From a virus: a DNA stretch of 64,000 bases. The stretch lies in the IMG/VR virus record IMGVR_UViG_3300020185_001680, positions 1-64,000 of that record. One strand, 5' to 3'. How positions within the stretch are numbered: the stretch's first letter is position 1; every line of letters begins with the position of its first letter. Of the stretch, positions 16,945-45,598 are shown piece after piece. Below the pieces are notes generated by a model, which worked only from the letters and a program-made list of their open reading frames with translations, had not been told where the DNA came from and searched no databases. A program made the translations under genes and the position numbers.

Positions 16945-16952
16945 TATTTAAC
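16945..16952 (-). promoter_or_regulatory. Putative late promoter (GTTAAATA), leaderless spacing
   Basis: GTTAAATA, spacer CTGCT, then ATG at 16939. Overlaps the TAG stop of the SodC-ParB gene. Confidence 0.5.
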
Positions 16953-18445
16953 TATTTCTTTTTCTTACCGGACTTCATGTTGGCACACCAGTGGTACATT
17001 TTTGACTTCTCTCCACTGCTGTCTTTTGCTTTTTTGCGTAGACTTGTAACTGAACCATCACAACTAGCGCCAGACTTCTTTACTCTGCCTGGACGACTTT
17101 TGCCTTTCACTTTGCCGTCAGCAAAGTTTTCGTCTAAAATTTCATCCGGTACTTCAAATTGCCATACAGTTGCTTGACCTTTATCATGCATCATTGCTGT
17201 AAGCCTAGTGTTACCGCCTATCAATTCCTTGTGCCCATCACTGTAAACAGCCACAATAGGCATTTCTACTTTACCACTTTTTAATTGTGCTGTTGCACGT
17301 TTTTGTTTTTGTGGATCCAATGTTTTAAAACTGTCAACATCTGCCGCATCTGTGTTGTTGATATCTTTGGCGCTCACAATAGTTGTTGCTTTTCCTTTAC
17401 TAGCAAGTTCGACCCAACCGTCTTTGCCTAATTTTTTAAACTCTGGATAACGTTGTGCTTCATCCCATTCCACATCAAACTGTGGCTTATTCATTTTTGT
17501 TTCCAACAGATTCTTAAAGTAATTTTCTGCCATTACTGCTCTGTCACTTGTGGTGTGGTCAAATGCTTTCATTACGTCTTCAATGTCTGCATCTATCATT
17601 ATAGTTTTTACTTTCTTAATACCTAATACATTGGCGGCATCAAATCTATGATGGCCATTAATAAGGTATCCTTTCTTATCTACTATAAACGGCTTGTCTT
17701 CGTTGTTTAAAAATACATCCTGAGACTTCTTTGCTAATCCGTCTACACGCTGAGTCTGTACAGGCTTAATTTTGTCTATGCTCATTGTTCCTTCTTTGTA
17801 CTTGAACTCTGAGCCTACTAAATGTTTTCTTTTAATTTGTGGTAATTGATTTCTATCAAATGTTTTCTCATATACTGGTCTAGTATAACTTTCTTCTACG
17901 CTCTTTCTTAAACGTACAACTCCACATGCTAACCTATCACCTGCGTTACCTGTTTTAAGACTTTCTTCATCTCCGCCTGTGCCTAAGTCATCTTCATCAG
18001 CATGTATAACTATTGCTCTACCAACAATACTTCTGTCGCCGCTTAGGTCAATACGCCTTGCAACAATTTTAAATCTTGCTATACCATCGTCATTGGCAAC
18101 TATGTTTCCTAAATCACCTATATGCCCGTCTGATAAGCCGCCATGGTCAACACCTTCTGGATTGTAATGCCCACCAGCACTTTCACAACCTTTACTAAGG
18201 TCCCCAAATTCATGTACATGGAATCCGTGCTTGCCTGATGTAAGTCCTTTTATTATACCTCGTATAATAGTAGGCTTGCCGGGGTCTTGTTTCATAACTA
18301 TAGCACCACTGATATCGCCTTCAGTGTGTTCTAGTTGTACAACTGCTTTAACTACTTCCTGTGCTTCTTGTATAGCACTTAAACTACTGCACTCGCAAGT
18401 CTTTGCTTTTGTTCGTGGACAACTTGTAAAGTTTGTCGTTCTCAC
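16952..18445 (-). CDS. Cu/Zn superoxide dismutase fused to ParB-like domains
   Basis: A 497-residue fusion. Residues about 30-180 are a complete SodC that converts superoxide to peroxide and oxygen. Copper ligands are H76, H78, H93 and H148, zinc ligands H93, H101, H108 and D111, the disulfide C87-C174, and the guiding Arg R171 in DRLACG. Residues about 215-290 resemble a ParB/Srx-type domain ('LINGHHRFDAANVLG'), and about 390-430 a second one ('ELIGGNTRLTAM'). The tail (450-497) is basic with 'GASCDGSVTSLR' and 'KMYHWCANMKSGKKKK'. The start is GTG in a TAGTG overlap with the 1902-residue gene, with AAAGGTG upstream. No signal peptide is seen, so it may act in the virion or cytoplasm. Confidence 0.88.
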   Translation of the reverse strand: MRTTNFTSCPRTKAKTCECSSLSAIQEAQEVVKAVVQLEHTEGDISGAIVMKQDPGKPTIIRGIIKGLTSGKHGFHVHEFGDLSKGCESAGGHYNPEGVDHGGLSDGHIGDLGNIVANDDGIARFKIVARRIDLSGDRSIVGRAIVIHADEDDLGTGGDEESLKTGNAGDRLACGVVRLRKSVEESYTRPVYEKTFDRNQLPQIKRKHLVGSEFKYKEGTMSIDKIKPVQTQRVDGLAKKSQDVFLNNEDKPFIVDKKGYLINGHHRFDAANVLGIKKVKTIMIDADIEDVMKAFDHTTSDRAVMAENYFKNLLETKMNKPQFDVEWDEAQRYPEFKKLGKDGWVELASKGKATTIVSAKDINNTDAADVDSFKTLDPQKQKRATAQLKSGKVEMPIVAVYSDGHKELIGGNTRLTAMMHDKGQATVWQFEVPDEILDENFADGKVKGKSRPGRVKKSGASCDGSVTSLRKKAKDSSGEKSKMYHWCANMKSGKKKK

Positions 18446-38785: not shown

Positions 38786-38911
38786 CTACTTTTTCTTCCC
38801 TTTGTGAAGTTCTGCGATACGCTTCGTCTGTTCGGCTATTTGTTTCGCTTGATCCTTAATTTGTTTCTCTTGGAACTTTAACTTTTGTTCCTGGTGTTCT
38901 CTACTGTCCAT
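38786..38911 (-). CDS. Small coiled-coil protein
   Basis: A 41-residue Gln/Lys-rich coiled coil starting MDSREHQEQKLKFQ, with heptad-like 'QIKDQAKQIAEQTKRIAEL'. Three ATGs stand in tandem; I chose the third (38911), which is seven bases from GGAG. It overlaps the end of the nucleosidase gene by 11 bases and ends one base before gp62. Real but unrecognised. Confidence 0.6.
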   Translation of the reverse strand: MDSREHQEQKLKFQEKQIKDQAKQIAEQTKRIAELHKGKKK

Positions 38912-39452
38912 CATCATTCTCCGTATATGCTTGTATATAATAAGGTTCGCCGTTAGAAACTGTCTCGTGCCATTCTTTATTTGCATTTTCATCGGCACTA
39001 TCACTTATATATTTAAAACACTTAAAATCAACACCGTGGTACTGGCACGCCTTTGCAATAGCATAAGCCTCCATATCTACTAAGTCTGCAGGTATTTCTA
39101 AGTCTGGATTATCAACAAAATTATCACCTGTACTACAAGTATATCCTTCATCAGGGTCGTTGAAATGAATTGCAATGTAGTCCTCGAATGGGGTCATGCC
39201 TAGATCAAAGCCTAGTTCACAACAACGCATATCACGTTGGACAAAATTTGATACTTCTACTAAATCTTTACAGTTAGAATTTATACCGCCTGCTGTGCCA
39301 AAATTCCAAACTCTACTAGGATTGTGTTCTTGTATTAGTGCCGATGCTCTAATGGCGGCATTAACTTTGCCTACACCAGTAAAAAATACATTGTCCCACT
39401 CGGCCATAGTAGGTGCTTCACTTTCTAACGCAATTAAAATTAGATCTTTCAT
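38901..39452 (-). CDS. MTA/SAH nucleosidase-like (PNP/UDP family)
   Basis: A 183-residue nucleosidase of the MtnN/Pfs type, which cleaves methylthioadenosine or S-adenosylhomocysteine to adenine. Landmarks are 'FTGVGKVNAAIRAS', 'VWNFGTAGGI', 'DLVDMEAYAIAKAC' and 'YISDSADENA', with the catalytic Glu and Asp in the last two. It is shorter than MtnN (about 230), missing part of the middle. The ATG at 39452 overlaps the apt stop (TGATG); a TTG one codon earlier is unlikely. Pairing with Apt makes an adenine-recycling module. Confidence 0.82.
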   Translation of the reverse strand: MKDLILIALESEAPTMAEWDNVFFTGVGKVNAAIRASALIQEHNPSRVWNFGTAGGINSNCKDLVEVSNFVQRDMRCCELGFDLGMTPFEDYIAIHFNDPDEGYTCSTGDNFVDNPDLEIPADLVDMEAYAIAKACQYHGVDFKCFKYISDSADENANKEWHETVSNGEPYYIQAYTENDDGQ

Positions 39453-40027
39453 CAATGTCCCTCAAACTCGATCAATGTGTTTACTCTATACCCATGCTCT
39501 TCTATTATAGCACTTCCTCTAAGTGTGGGCAAGTCTATTAGTGCTAATATTTGAATATTTTCTTTGGGTACTCCAAAATGTGTATGTACAATATCTGCAC
39601 AGGCTATTGCTGTACCACCTGTAGCAATCAAATCGTCCATTATTACAACTTTATCAGCTGGAACAATATCTGTATTGCATTGTATATTCAAACATGCAGT
39701 ACCGTACTCTAATTCATACTCTTTCCTGTATACGTTGCCTGGTAACTTGCCAGGCTTACGAGCCATTATAAAAGGTACGCTCAAGTCTCTAGCCACTGGG
39801 GCACCAAAAACAAACCCTCTACTTTCAATGCCAATAACTTGAGTAGCACCAAAGCTCATTGAAAGCGAAGTTAAATCCATTAACGACTTATTAAATGACT
39901 TTGGATTTTCCAATAGACTAGATATGTCTCTAAATTCAATACCTGCTTTTGGAAATCCGGATACTGTTCTAATGTGGTCTTTTAAATCTATATTATAACT
40001 ACTCACTGTCGGAGAGCTCGTCATCAT
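39452..40027 (-). CDS. apt: Adenine phosphoribosyltransferase
   Basis: Apt joins adenine and PRPP to form AMP. The PRPP-binding motif 'VVIMDDLIATGGTA' is intact, as are 'GIESRGFVFGAP' and the flexible-loop 'ARKPGKLPG'. Length (191) is normal. Two ATGs stand in tandem at the start (40027 and 40024), overlapping the acidic gene by about 28 bases. The nucleosidase gene follows in a TGATG overlap, so adenine released there can be salvaged here. Confidence 0.95.
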   Translation of the reverse strand: MMTSSPTVSSYNIDLKDHIRTVSGFPKAGIEFRDISSLLENPKSFNKSLMDLTSLSMSFGATQVIGIESRGFVFGAPVARDLSVPFIMARKPGKLPGNVYRKEYELEYGTACLNIQCNTDIVPADKVVIMDDLIATGGTAIACADIVHTHFGVPKENIQILALIDLPTLRGSAIIEEHGYRVNTLIEFEGH

Positions 40028-40763: not shown

Positions 40764-41267
40764 CTAGTCTAATAAATCGCCAATGTAAAGATCATTAGGT
40801 ATCTTATTGGCTTCTTTTACAAAAAATGCACACCTAGGATTTGGCTTGTTTTCTAGAGGTGCAACTAATAAATGCCCGTTCTTCAATTTAGGGAAGAACC
40901 ATTTTACGTCTTGATAGATGTTTGTAATTTTTATTTCTTGTGCTTCTAACATCTTTCTGCCTAAAGGATTCATTGTTGCTGTTAAGAATCCTCTATTGTT
41001 TAAACTAGTTAAAGGCACTACTTCAATACCAGTCAAATCTTCATCTGTTATTACTATGCTCCAATCCATAGGCATCTGGATAGTGTTTTCGCCTATTTGT
41101 AAACATATTGCTGGAGCGTAAAAGCTCTCCAGAAAAATTAAAGGAAGGAAATAATAATCCATCCAGTCTGTTTCTGTTGTGTCAAATACACAGAAACGTA
41201 TATCATCTATTTCGTCAGGTACATGGTCAATTTCATATACATCGTTCTCTACTGTTAATATTTTCAT
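40764..41267 (-). CDS. Hypothetical protein downstream of uvsW
   Basis: A 167-residue mixed alpha/beta protein (MKILTVENDVYEIDHVPDEI) with 'VKWFFPKLKNGHLLVAPLEN' toward the end. It starts with GGAG in front of the ATG and overlaps the uvsW stop by 4 bases. It probably belongs to the uvsW transcript. I do not recognise a domain; the size and position suggest a conserved accessory replication gene. Confidence 0.78.
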   Translation of the reverse strand: MKILTVENDVYEIDHVPDEIDDIRFCVFDTTETDWMDYYFLPLIFLESFYAPAICLQIGENTIQMPMDWSIVITDEDLTGIEVVPLTSLNNRGFLTATMNPLGRKMLEAQEIKITNIYQDVKWFFPKLKNGHLLVAPLENKPNPRCAFFVKEANKIPNDLYIGDLLD

Positions 41268-42721
41268 TTATACTCCACTTTGGTCACTTGGAACGGAAAT
41301 CCTTGTTCTTTATAAAACGCCTTACGGGCTGTCAAGTGTTTCTTACTATATTTTAAATTACTCGTAATGTCAACAACATTTAAATAGTCCTTGTCCTCTG
41401 CTTTACGAATGCCTCTACCTATGCTTTGTATAACACGCACATAACTTTTGCCTGGCTCTAAAAGAACTAAGTTAAAAATTCTGGGTATGTTAATACCTAC
41501 TGCCGCTACTCCATATGTAGCAACAATAACTTTATTATCCATTTCACTAACTTCTCTGTATTCCTTTTGCCTGTCAGATACTTTCATCTCCCCGCTAATA
41601 AATACCCACTCCGGAAACATTTCGGATAATAGTTGCCCTGTGGCAAGTCTGTCAATCAAAACTAATGTGTTTCCGCCTGTGCTGAGACCAGTAATAACTT
41701 TACTAATCTCGGTAATTCTGTCTTTGTCAGTTACAAGCCATTTAAGTTCTTGTGCATAATTATTAAATCCTAGCACACCGTCTTGCATTTGCAGTATGTT
41801 AATATCTAATTTTGCTAACACACCTTTGTCTTGTAATTCTTTACTGCTTAAATTTCCAATCACAGGGCCTAAACTACAAACACAACCAACTGCTTCGTAT
41901 TCGTCTTTGGGTATAGTTCCTGTAAGTCCCCATCGAACGGGAACATTCCTAAATGCCCCGCTCAACAAGTTACGGAGTACATCTGCTTTCGCTTTATGTA
42001 CTTCGTCTACCATAATGCAAACCACGTCCTCTAGAAATGTATCTATAGGGAAGTCTGCTTCGTACTTCTTACTTTTCTTTTCCATTATACTTAGGCTCTG
42101 CCAAGTACAAATTGTGTGCGTTTTGTCGTACTCTTTACGGTCTCCAAATAGTACACCAACATCAAGTCCTAAGTTTTTGTAGTCACGTTCTGTTTGTACT
42201 ACTAAGTCTTTGTTTGGAACAATAACTATAGTACGCCCATATGGTTCACACATATTGCTTAAGGCGGCTGTTATGAGAGTCTTACCTGCTCCTGTCGCCA
42301 CTTCTTGAATACTCTGTGGATGTTTTAAAAAGTTATTAATAACTTCTACTTGATAGTCTCGCAATATAATTGGTTCACCTTCTGCTGGATGACCTTTGGG
42401 CCAAGCAACATTGTCGAATCTAGTCTGTGTGATCTCTGGGAAATCAAATGACCAAACGTCTCTGTTGTCTTGGACCTCAATGTCGTATCCTGCTTGTTGA
42501 ACAATCGGAAGCAATCTATCGAGTAGGTTCATATATGTCCTACCGCCTACGTCACAATACCTTACACAACCATCCCACCGACCTAACTTGTAAGCCGGCA
42601 TATGATATGCATATGGTAAAAAGTATTTTACAGCGTCTGATACGTTACGTCTAGTTTTAACATCAAGTCCAACGAACTTGACATTTACTTCATCACGTAT
42701 TTCTAGAACACATTTTCCCAT
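41264..42721 (-). CDS. uvsW: UvsW DNA helicase
   Basis: A 485-residue SF2 helicase like T4 UvsW, which remodels branched DNA and helps switch from origin- to recombination-dependent replication. Walker A is 'EVATGAGKT' (about 140), the DExH box is 'CIMVDEVHKAK' (about 236), and motif VI is 'VIQSIGRGIRK' (about 440). The N-terminal small domain (1-110) is also present. AGAGG precedes the ATG. A consensus early promoter overlaps the end of the receptor gene upstream. Confidence 0.94.
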   Translation of the reverse strand: MGKCVLEIRDEVNVKFVGLDVKTRRNVSDAVKYFLPYAYHMPAYKLGRWDGCVRYCDVGGRTYMNLLDRLLPIVQQAGYDIEVQDNRDVWSFDFPEITQTRFDNVAWPKGHPAEGEPIILRDYQVEVINNFLKHPQSIQEVATGAGKTLITAALSNMCEPYGRTIVIVPNKDLVVQTERDYKNLGLDVGVLFGDRKEYDKTHTICTWQSLSIMEKKSKKYEADFPIDTFLEDVVCIMVDEVHKAKADVLRNLLSGAFRNVPVRWGLTGTIPKDEYEAVGCVCSLGPVIGNLSSKELQDKGVLAKLDINILQMQDGVLGFNNYAQELKWLVTDKDRITEISKVITGLSTGGNTLVLIDRLATGQLLSEMFPEWVFISGEMKVSDRQKEYREVSEMDNKVIVATYGVAAVGINIPRIFNLVLLEPGKSYVRVIQSIGRGIRKAEDKDYLNVVDITSNLKYSKKHLTARKAFYKEQGFPFQVTKVEYK

Positions 42722-42745: not shown

Positions 42746-42775
42746 ATTATACTACCAGTTGTAGCCTAATGTCAA
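42746..42775 (-). promoter_or_regulatory. Early-type sigma70 promoter for uvsW
   Basis: TTGACA (42770-42775), 18-base spacer, TATAAT (42746-42751). The -35 and spacer overlap the last codons of the receptor gene. Confidence 0.85.
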
Positions 42776-44398
42776 GTAAATTTCTCTTCCTTGGTTATCA
42801 TAAAATGGAACAACCTCAACTACATCGTCAAATGCGTTCTCAACCTTTAAAGATAATGTTACTTTTTCATTGATGTATCTAGTGTAGTACAAGTTCATCT
42901 TTTTCAAGTCCTCTAAAAACTCGCTGTCAATTATATCATATTGACTAGGTGCCCTGTCTAAGTTAACTGCATACTTCACTTGATATTCGTTCTTGCCGTA
43001 ACGTTGTTTCCAACTAATCATAGCACCATACTTGGCAACTCTAGGTTGCTCTGTGTCTGTATACTTTAGCATAACACTTACTGCACCAAAGTTCTGCATG
43101 TATCTAAAACCCTGTGTAATGAAGTCTCCTGCGTTGTAGTACTGCGGATTAACATACACATCACCTAACATAAAGCCGGATTGATAATCAATAGTTTCTG
43201 AAAACTCGTATCTAAATAGACCAAGTGTTCCGAACCCAATCTCATACCCAATGCCTTCTTCTGGTTTTAAAGTTTCGTTACCTAATACAAAATCGTCACC
43301 GAACTTTTCATACAGTGTAGGCTTTCTAAAACTGTTTCCAATATTTAAAAAGAACTGTCCTTTTGTCATACCAAAACGTAATGCATTCTGATCATCGTTA
43401 CCAACTCTAATACCAAAGTTATAATCGAATACTGCCGATGCATTAACACTAACGAACGCTCCGTAGTTGTCATCTTCGTATGTGTTCGAGCCTGATGTTG
43501 ATTCAGTTGCATAATGTAATGCTTCTGCGTCTACACCAAAGTCAATAGACACCATTGAACTTAGGTCTTTATGCTCTGCTATTCTCAAGAAGTTTCTATA
43601 ACTCTCATTACTGTAAGTTTGAATACCATCTGTGGAATACTTGCTGTCAGTGAATGACCTGCCTATAGTAATGTTATCATTTCTAACACTAAGATTATAA
43701 CGGTCACCTACATCCACACAATCGTTTGATTGTGAAAAGTCAGCAGTGTAGCAGTTGTCGTAATCATATTCGTACTCAACAAACTTACCTGCGAATGTCC
43801 AATCGCCTGCATCAACGGATACTTTTACTTGTTGTAAGTCATAAGAATCCTCCTCAGTGTTGTCATTTCTAACACTAGGCATATCGGATCTAAACTTAGT
43901 ATACTCAAAATTATCGGTTGGTGCTATTCTTAAATAAGAAGGGTCAGATCCTTCAAATCTAATAGTGCTACCAGAATCGATAACGTCTTTGATTAACACT
44001 GTTCCTGCAATACTGCCTGAACCATATAGTACACCATTTGCACCTGTGATTACTTTTACGCTCTCACCTGATACAATGTCGTGTCCAAAGTTATACCATC
44101 CTGATCCGGGCTCATTGGCTGGTATACCGTTAGTGTATACTGTGGTGTGTACTGTTTGAGCACCACGCTCGTTATAGCCTATAAATCCACCATAACCACC
44201 TGGGTTATAAGTGAAAGCAGGCATAATTGCACTAATCAATCTAGTACTTGTAATTGGAGTCGTCTCCATTAATTGTACTTGTTGGGCAACTACTATTACC
44301 TCTTCTATCTCATCTGCTTCTACTGTAGCAGGCGTCATAAATGCTATTGTTAATAACAGTGCGCCGCCTGTACTGTAAAATGTATTTTTAAGTTTCAT
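42752..44398 (-). CDS. TonB-dependent outer-membrane receptor
   Basis: A 548-residue TonB-dependent receptor. Residues 1-28 are a signal peptide (MKLKNTFYSTGGALLLTIAF, cleaved near TVEA-DE). 'EEVIVVAQQ' follows as a TonB box. The plug (about 45-170) contains 'GYNERGAQTVHTTVYTNGIP' and 'VITGANGVLYGSGSIAGTV'. The remainder is a beta barrel with 'NSFRKPTLYEKFG' and 'NETLKPEEGIGYEIGF', ending in YNW, an aromatic last residue as used for BAM insertion. Sequence layout is nearest the BtuB/vitamin or siderophore type; the ligand is unknown. It is shorter than most (600-750). It has its own promoter, GGAGAG ribosome binding site and a structured terminator-like element upstream. A phage copy could feed the host or block rival phages. 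Confidence 0.92.
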   Translation of the reverse strand: MKLKNTFYSTGGALLLTIAFMTPATVEADEIEEVIVVAQQVQLMETTPITSTRLISAIMPAFTYNPGGYGGFIGYNERGAQTVHTTVYTNGIPANEPGSGWYNFGHDIVSGESVKVITGANGVLYGSGSIAGTVLIKDVIDSGSTIRFEGSDPSYLRIAPTDNFEYTKFRSDMPSVRNDNTEEDSYDLQQVKVSVDAGDWTFAGKFVEYEYDYDNCYTADFSQSNDCVDVGDRYNLSVRNDNITIGRSFTDSKYSTDGIQTYSNESYRNFLRIAEHKDLSSMVSIDFGVDAEALHYATESTSGSNTYEDDNYGAFVSVNASAVFDYNFGIRVGNDDQNALRFGMTKGQFFLNIGNSFRKPTLYEKFGDDFVLGNETLKPEEGIGYEIGFGTLGLFRYEFSETIDYQSGFMLGDVYVNPQYYNAGDFITQGFRYMQNFGAVSVMLKYTDTEQPRVAKYGAMISWKQRYGKNEYQVKYAVNLDRAPSQYDIIDSEFLEDLKKMNLYYTRYINEKVTLSLKVENAFDDVVEVVPFYDNQGREIYLTLGYNW

Positions 44399-44424
44399 AA
44401 ACTCTCCTTATTATTATACAACTA

Positions 44425-44452
44425 ATTATACGCATCAGTGGCACAAAGTCAA
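44425..44452 (-). promoter_or_regulatory. Early-type sigma70 promoter for the receptor gene
   Basis: TTGACT (44447-44452), 16-base spacer, TATAAT (44425-44430). It is followed by a GGAGAG ribosome binding site and the ATG at 44398. Confidence 0.9.
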
Positions 44453-44472: not shown

Positions 44473-44537
44473 GAAGCCCGGAGGGGATCCGGGCTTCGTG
44501 GTGCTCTGTTGGGGGGATGACTAACGTTTGAGCACCA
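44473..44537 (-). terminator. GC-rich double-hairpin element, terminator-like
   Basis: Two stems between the AAA ATPase gene and the receptor promoter. One is TGGTGCTC/GAGCACCA (8 bp, 23-base loop, 44499-44537), the other GAAGCCCGG/CCGGGCTTC (9 bp, 7-base loop, 44473-44497). On the minus transcript the second stem is followed by ACCTTTTATT, a weak U-tract. It is much more GC-rich than its surroundings. It could be a terminator or a small structured RNA. Confidence 0.65.
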
Positions 44538-44563: not shown

Positions 44564-45598
44564 TTAAATATGCCCCTTCATACAAGTAGTTCTGGCTAGT
44601 GCCTGCCAATTTGCAGGGTCCATTTTTCTCAAGTCTGAGATTTTAAGAACCATTCGCAAACTAATCTCTCTAAGGATTGCGGCATTGTCTAGCATAAAGT
44701 TAATAATTTCTTTATCACCTTCTTCACCAAACTTGTATTCTTCAAGCATACCATCACGAACAATTTGCTTGATCCTAATGAACTTATCTGAGATGCTGTT
44801 CATTGTAAGATCCAAGTAGTGACATCTTGACATAAGAGCCGCTAAGTGATCCTTAATCTTCTTAGAACGAACGTTTTCAAAGTCAACGTTAGTAATAAAG
44901 ATACAACCACCTTTGAACTCAAACCTATCTGGAATGCCTTCCCTACGCAATGCGTTGGACTCTGACTTCCAAGTGATGTAACGCTTCTTACCTGAATCCA
45001 ATGTAGCCTTCAGCATGTTCAAACATACTTCGTCAAACAATACACTGTCACAGTCATCAAATACAAGTATGTTACCTGCCGCACTATTGTTATATAGTGT
45101 TTGGAATAAACCAATTGGCGTAACAGAACCTTTAACAACTTCAGTCCTTGCAGGCTTACCAGCAACTTCTGTAAGCATATCGTAATCTTCCAATACAGTT
45201 TCTACACCAAAAGACTTACCAACACCTGGAGGACCACTAACAATCATACCACGTACTGTGCCTTCTGCTACAGCATGAGTCATACGATCCAAGATATCAA
45301 AACGTTCTTTAATACGTTCGATTGCTTGTTCTTCGTTTTCTTCCTCTTTAGGAGTGTTGTCGATTTTAGGCTGTTCAGCATAAACACTTGGAGTAACATA
45401 TTCTAAATCCTGTGTAGGATCTTCTATAAGTACTCTAATGCTTGAAAACTTCTCGCCCATTGCTTCACTACCGTCCACTGTAATAAAGGCACCTTTTTTG
45501 CCTATGTTAAGTGGCTTGATGATTGGAAATACTGTATCAACGATATCGTTTTTACGGTATGTACCAGTCTTGATTTTTACATAATTTTGTTTTGTCAT
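44564..45598 (-). CDS. AAA-family ATPase
   Basis: A 344-residue P-loop ATPase. Walker A is GPPGVGKS (122-129), Walker B 'NILVFDDCDSVLFDE' (about 178-192), then 'GGCIFITNVD' as sensor 1. It is not the clamp loader gp44, whose N-terminus differs. Similar single AAA proteins occur in many large myophages, with unproven roles in replication or assembly. Two strong tandem promoters in the 198-base leader suggest high early expression. Confidence 0.85.
   Translation of the reverse strand: MTKQNYVKIKTGTYRKNDIVDTVFPIIKPLNIGKKGAFITVDGSEAMGEKFSSIRVLIEDPTQDLEYVTPSVYAEQPKIDNTPKEEENEEQAIERIKERFDILDRMTHAVAEGTVRGMIVSGPPGVGKSFGVETVLEDYDMLTEVAGKPARTEVVKGSVTPIGLFQTLYNNSAAGNILVFDDCDSVLFDEVCLNMLKATLDSGKKRYITWKSESNALRREGIPDRFEFKGGCIFITNVDFENVRSKKIKDHLAALMSRCHYLDLTMNSISDKFIRIKQIVRDGMLEEYKFGEEGDKEIINFMLDNAAILREISLRMVLKISDLRKMDPANWQALARTTCMKGHI

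Follow-up and report, generated by a model that had tools for sequence, protein, structure and literature searches.

We analysed a 64.0-kb window, the whole stretch of DNA under study, taken from a 65.7-kb uncultured virus record that is itself an incomplete virus contig. The window encodes T4-type genes for UvsX, gp32, UvsW, a DnaB-type helicase, primase, large terminase and tail sheath, together with a class Ia ribonucleotide reductase. The nearest counterparts of the terminase (59% identical) and of the sheath (44% identical) were in large T4-like phages, Pseudomonas phage PA5oct among them. In the replication region, between a clamp-loader-like gene and uvsW, lies a gene for a TonB-dependent receptor (Table 1). 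The apt and nucleosidase genes overlap, making up an operon some 2.7 kb downstream of the receptor, and are predicted to form a viral pair recycling adenine from MTA and SAH. At this place several related phages had apt with no nucleosidase in view.

Table 1. Features of the receptor locus in the window.
Feature	Position	Strand	Remarks
PNP_UDP_1 nucleosidase	38901..39455	-	MTA/SAH-nucleosidase-like; overlaps apt
Adenine phosphoribosyltransferase (apt)	39452..40027	-	Exceeds the NCBIfam NF002636 cut-off
UvsW-like DNA helicase	41264..42721	-	Downstream neighbour
uvsW promoter	42746..42775	-	TTGACA-18-TATAAT; perfect 12/12 sigma-70 consensus
TonB-dependent receptor gene	42752..44398	-	Intact ORF, 548 aa
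Receptor parts (residues)			Signal peptide ~1-28; TonB box ~31-38; plug ~39-142; 22-strand barrel 143-548
Receptor ribosome binding site	44402..44411	-	AAGGAGA; directly 5' of the ATG
Receptor promoter	44425..44452	-	TTGACT-16-TATAAT; 11/12 sigma-70 consensus matches; end of -10 is 26 nt from the ATG
Hairpin resembling an intrinsic terminator, assigned to the upstream clamp-loader-like gene	44473..44497	-	10-bp GC-rich stem, T-rich tail
AAA ATPase (phrog_1250)	44564..45598	-	Upstream neighbour; gp44 clamp-loader position

The receptor protein and its expression signals

A first-pass annotation of this DNA had described a receptor with signal peptide, TonB box, plug, barrel and terminal aromatic residue, and all of these parts were recovered by our searches and modelling. 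The Plug domain (Pfam PF07715) was detected with an E-value of 2e-8 and a score of 35 bits, above the curated cut-off of 23.9. The signal peptide, whose cleavage site was judged by eye, would be cut between TVEA and DEIEEVIVVAQQ, which places the TonB box at the predicted mature N terminus. Among the relatives, AxA-type signal-peptide ends and an EEV(I/V)V(T/V)AQ box recur, and the TonB box is near-invariant. The C-terminal residue was aromatic in all 41 representatives and tryptophan in 40 of them; in the window protein it is Trp548. A structure model based on 40 viral homologues (mean pLDDT 83.9, pTM 0.83) contained a complete plug and 22 barrel strands, and was used in place of a weak first model made from 18 sequences (pLDDT 65). 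In the barrel the turns on one side, taken as periplasmic, were 2-4 residues long and the outer loops on the opposite side were mostly longer, which is the expected topology. On its plug, its barrel with terminal aromatic residue and its signal peptide with TonB box, the protein is predicted to belong to the TonB-dependent receptor superfamily. Signal leaders of no fewer than three unrelated types (KNFHxN, EEFFHKH and KFLYDN) were found shuffled over receptor bodies that are 93% identical, for example in contigs L069 and L016. We also considered whether these are general phage leaders, and rejected this as they preceded receptors only at the loci examined.

The promoter and ribosome binding site that had been claimed for the gene were confirmed. 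When the 150 nt upstream of the receptor were shuffled, none of 200 shuffles equalled the promoter score. At the clamp-loader/uvsW site, 26 of the 31 representatives had a promoter with 11 or 12 of 12 consensus matches within 150 nt upstream of the receptor; among the five exceptions, L072 begins close to the contig end and in L042 the promoter falls within an over-long ORF call. Promoters of the same class stand on the same strand at other replication-region genes of the window, so the receptor gene is likely transcribed by the host RNA polymerase from its own sigma-70 promoter.

The upstream structured element, which the first-pass annotation had read as an insulator of the receptor gene, was only partly upheld. 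The hairpin is real, a strong intrinsic terminator within a leader that folded better than 200 of 200 shuffles (z -4.3). However, we assign it to the clamp-loader-like gene as its terminator, because a terminator is found in the same place in contig L156, which has no receptor and in which the clamp gene is followed by terminator, promoter and uvsW. Downstream of the receptor gene we detected no terminator belonging to it, and the uvsW promoter, which faces uvsW, lies across the final codons of the receptor gene. Judged from the gene order in L156, the receptor with its promoter sits between the clamp terminator and the uvsW promoter in a moron-like way.

Distribution, insertion site and exchange of alleles

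A motif scan found relatives of the receptor in at least 240 IMG/VR contigs, and the best 80 of these 240 were carried forward. The window receptor had no match among 50,697 phage records. A divergent member of the family did have matches in these records, all of them BtuB genes in apparently mis-filed bacterial contigs. The records CAKLQH020000002, AGRM01000004 and AFYI01000005 are filed as phages and carry btuB, in two of the three beside 16S rRNA, and look like bacterial contigs that were mis-filed. Scanned twice with narrow, virus-specific motifs, bacterial and archaeal genomes gave no receptor relative, and bacterial kin may exist. As far as seen to date, the family appears in uncultured viruses only and is missing from isolate records.

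The receptor was present in 10 of the 11 contigs, besides the window, that have a UvsX at least 81% identical and that span the junction. It was present in none of nine more distant relatives with uvsW in view, and we conclude from this difference that the receptor marks one lineage. These patterns suggest that the receptor gene is a moron-like accessory of its T4-like phage. Morons are best known from prophages. The receptor resembles them in having its own promoter, in being inserted between a terminator and the next promoter and in being present or absent among close relatives, but unlike them it sits in a T4-type replication region.

The pairwise dN/dS of the receptor was 0.06-0.31 (19 pairs), and 0.08-0.12 between the window and its nearest relatives. 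The gene is under purifying selection and has no sign of decay. TonB-dependent receptors are common in bacteria and the record is an incomplete virus contig, which would be in keeping with a recent host capture, an assembly chimera or bacterial contamination of no use to the phage. We consider this highly improbable, since the gene lies between T4-type replication genes at one and the same junction across many independent contigs, empty sites are defined, at least 240 relatives are viral, and the gene is under purifying selection; limited searches also found no close bacterial homologue. Contamination and misassembly in particular were rejected on the conserved junction context and the empty sites. 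The finding that would have spoken against the first-pass annotation, close identity to a single host gene with signs of decay, was not made: E. coli BtuB, the nearest solved structure by both sequence and fold, is only about 22% identical to the receptor.

The receptors are much more divergent than their surroundings, with a median identity of 54% as compared to 86% for UvsX and 79% for UvsW. Receptor identity tracked that of the flanks poorly (r 0.37-0.45), whereas the two flanks correlated with each other at 0.81. Between phages of the L088 and L069 types UvsX is 92-94% identical and the receptors are only 53-54% identical, with or without the long inserts in outer loops L5 and L8. This difference appears to reflect a whole-gene allele swap at a fixed site.

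A second receptor site was found near baseplate genes and on the opposite strand to them. Here a PNP_UDP_1 nucleosidase, the receptor and an 87-aa gene stand in a row, as in L083 (9402-12275) and also in L102, L037, L031, L089, L108 and others. The nucleosidase, of the MTA/SAH type and a relative of the one in the window, is the operon partner of the receptor, which in all ten representatives found at this site starts a few nucleotides after it without a promoter of its own. The arrangement was kept although gp25 identity fell to about 54%. Contigs of the two sites never overlap. On the receptor tree, site context requires five changes, at least three of which are forced by well-supported branches. 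Together with the poor tracking of the flanks, this indicates that alleles have moved between sites or phages several times.

Likeness to BtuB and the ligand-facing parts

Searched against the whole PDB, a profile of 40 viral receptors ranked BtuB first (E 3e-7), followed by the heme receptors ShuA and ChuA at about 0.05. In a Foldseek search of the receptor model against the PDB, the first nine matches were all BtuB structures, eight of E. coli BtuB and one of Bacteroides BtuB3G3, and the best match (TM 0.77) was BtuB bound to TonB. The curated BtuB models matched 13 of 18 receptor members but never near cut-off, as the equivalog models gave at most 43 bits against thresholds of 600 (TIGR01779) and 836 (NF007926). 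At this score and at about 22% identity, the ligand is not readable from the likeness to BtuB. The receptor shares with BtuB a plug and 22-strand barrel, a TonB box at the mature N terminus, acid-rich loops L2 and L3 and a similar length. It differs from BtuB in an invariant pair of cysteines in L3, in the variable lengths of L5 and L8, in being borne by a phage and in an equivalog score more than tenfold too low.

In BtuB the ligand is contacted by the plug apices and the outer loops. In the receptor family these parts fell into two groups, with the plug and loops L2, L3 and L6 strongly conserved and L5 and L8 differing by up to 60-70 residues. Across the 41 representatives the mean entropy was 0.44 bits in L2, 0.57 in L6, 0.88 in the plug and 0.96 in L3, in comparison to 1.32 in the barrel strands. 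The acidic residues D179, E182, D184 and D214 of L2/L3 were invariant, as was the L3 cysteine pair. Close to its B12 site, BtuB binds two calcium ions through a cage formed by five aspartates, and loops L2-L5 of BtuB are important for binding (PMC7360065). In a pairwise alignment the acid-rich L2 and L3 of the receptor align with BtuB loops that are likewise rich in acidic residues, and the invariant acidic residues lie at places similar to those of the calcium cage, a correspondence at the level of sequence position. This likeness is suggestive but short of proof.

The outer loops L5 and L8 varied from 0 to 61 and from 4 to 71 residues, respectively. Such variation would fit superinfection exclusion or receptor replacement. 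In that case the phage protein would act against a host receptor exploited by rival phages or bacteriocins, by competing with it, masking it or taking its place, and transport would come second. The exchange of alleles at a fixed locus, with receptors 53% identical beside UvsX 94% identical, and the movement of the gene between two genomic sites agree with this explanation too. We nevertheless regard it as unlikely, because the TonB box, the plug apices and L2, L3 and L6 are among the most conserved parts and a pure mask would need neither a TonB box nor a conserved pocket. The low dN/dS of the whole protein also argues against exclusion, although a gene-wide average can hide positive selection in loops.

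We also asked how well the receptor fits ligands other than corrinoids. Heme, a siderophore, a metal or a nucleoside-containing molecule tied to the nucleosidase and apt genes could be imported instead, and the co-location with purine-salvage genes, the second rank of ShuA and ChuA and the weak matches of heme/hemoglobin receptor models (the hem/lactrns and hemin models) are in line with this. Heme receptors use a histidine between FRAP-like and NxxLxPE (NPNL-like) motifs. This hallmark residue is absent in 38 of the 41 representatives, and assignment to the heme receptor class (TIGR01785/TIGR01786) was rejected. As BtuB moreover tops both the sequence and the fold rankings, another ligand is possible but somewhat doubtful.

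Proposed function and receptors known from other phages

Uptake of a limiting cofactor fits the data best, because the plug apices and L2, L3 and L6 are conserved and no solved structure is closer than BtuB. We give an even chance to the receptor being a working transporter of one scarce micronutrient, most likely a corrinoid of the vitamin B12 type. The low dN/dS and the repeated pairing with an SAH/MTA-type nucleosidase also speak for it. We infer its expression, export, coupling to TonB, ligand and benefit to the phage as follows. The unmodified host RNA polymerase would transcribe the gene from its sigma-70 promoter, and the protein would leave the cytoplasm by Sec and insert into the outer membrane of its Gram-negative host. 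Host TonB-ExbBD would then energise it, and the micronutrient would be imported during infection. A corrinoid would be held, as in BtuB, between the conserved plug apices and the acid-rich, probably calcium-binding L2 and L3. The phage might benefit if the B12-dependent methionine/SAM cycle is sustained in this way while the nucleosidase and apt products recycle the adenine of SAH and MTA.

Some observations count against this reading. The ribonucleotide reductase of the window is of class Ia, which needs no B12, and a search of the window for a cobalamin riboswitch or any other Rfam family found none. The allele swaps and the long insertions and deletions in L5 and L8 also fit conflict with other phages or bacteriocins. 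The fullest version is less likely than not. In it, a transporter family of the cobalamin type, exclusive to viruses and spread through uncultured T4-like phages, would swap alleles between two genomic sites and pair with an SAH/MTA nucleosidase, and phages would use it to raise corrinoid uptake and drive the methionine/SAM cycle of the infected cell.

Most of the accessory genes known from phages work within the cell, and B12 is scarce and traded among microbes in many waters. If the transporter reading is true, a conserved viral family equips the outer membrane with a powered importer, by which phages would alter what the infected cell takes up from its environment. If the imported nutrient is B12, infection by phages would be coupled directly to the flow of the vitamin. 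The family suggests that these phages re-equip the surface of the infected cell.

TonB-dependent receptors had been described in phages before. The uncultured marine megaphage Mar_Mega_1 carries a putative SusC-type TonB-dependent receptor, which was proposed to raise nutrient uptake (PMC9723777) and is, like the window protein, phage-borne. The BFVD entry 'TonB-dependent receptor SusC [uncultured marine phage]', probably the Mar_Mega_1 protein, is 805 aa long and gave a TM of 0.52 and 9% identity to the window receptor over the structural alignment. The pelagiphage Polarivirus skadi also has an annotated TonB-dependent receptor, with tail-tube genes on one side and capsid genes on the other, which was discussed as a clue to the adsorption receptor (PMC10504331). 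It shares with the window receptor its annotation in a (marine) phage genome and differs in location, and the phage records gave no sequence match to the window protein. Our literature search gave no account of BtuB-like receptors as a phage family, of how far they have spread or of their exchange between two sites.

Elsewhere in the window, at 16952-18445, a 497-aa protein joins an N-terminal Cu-Zn superoxide dismutase-like (SodC) domain, a kind usually found in the periplasm, with a nuclease-type domain resembling ParB.
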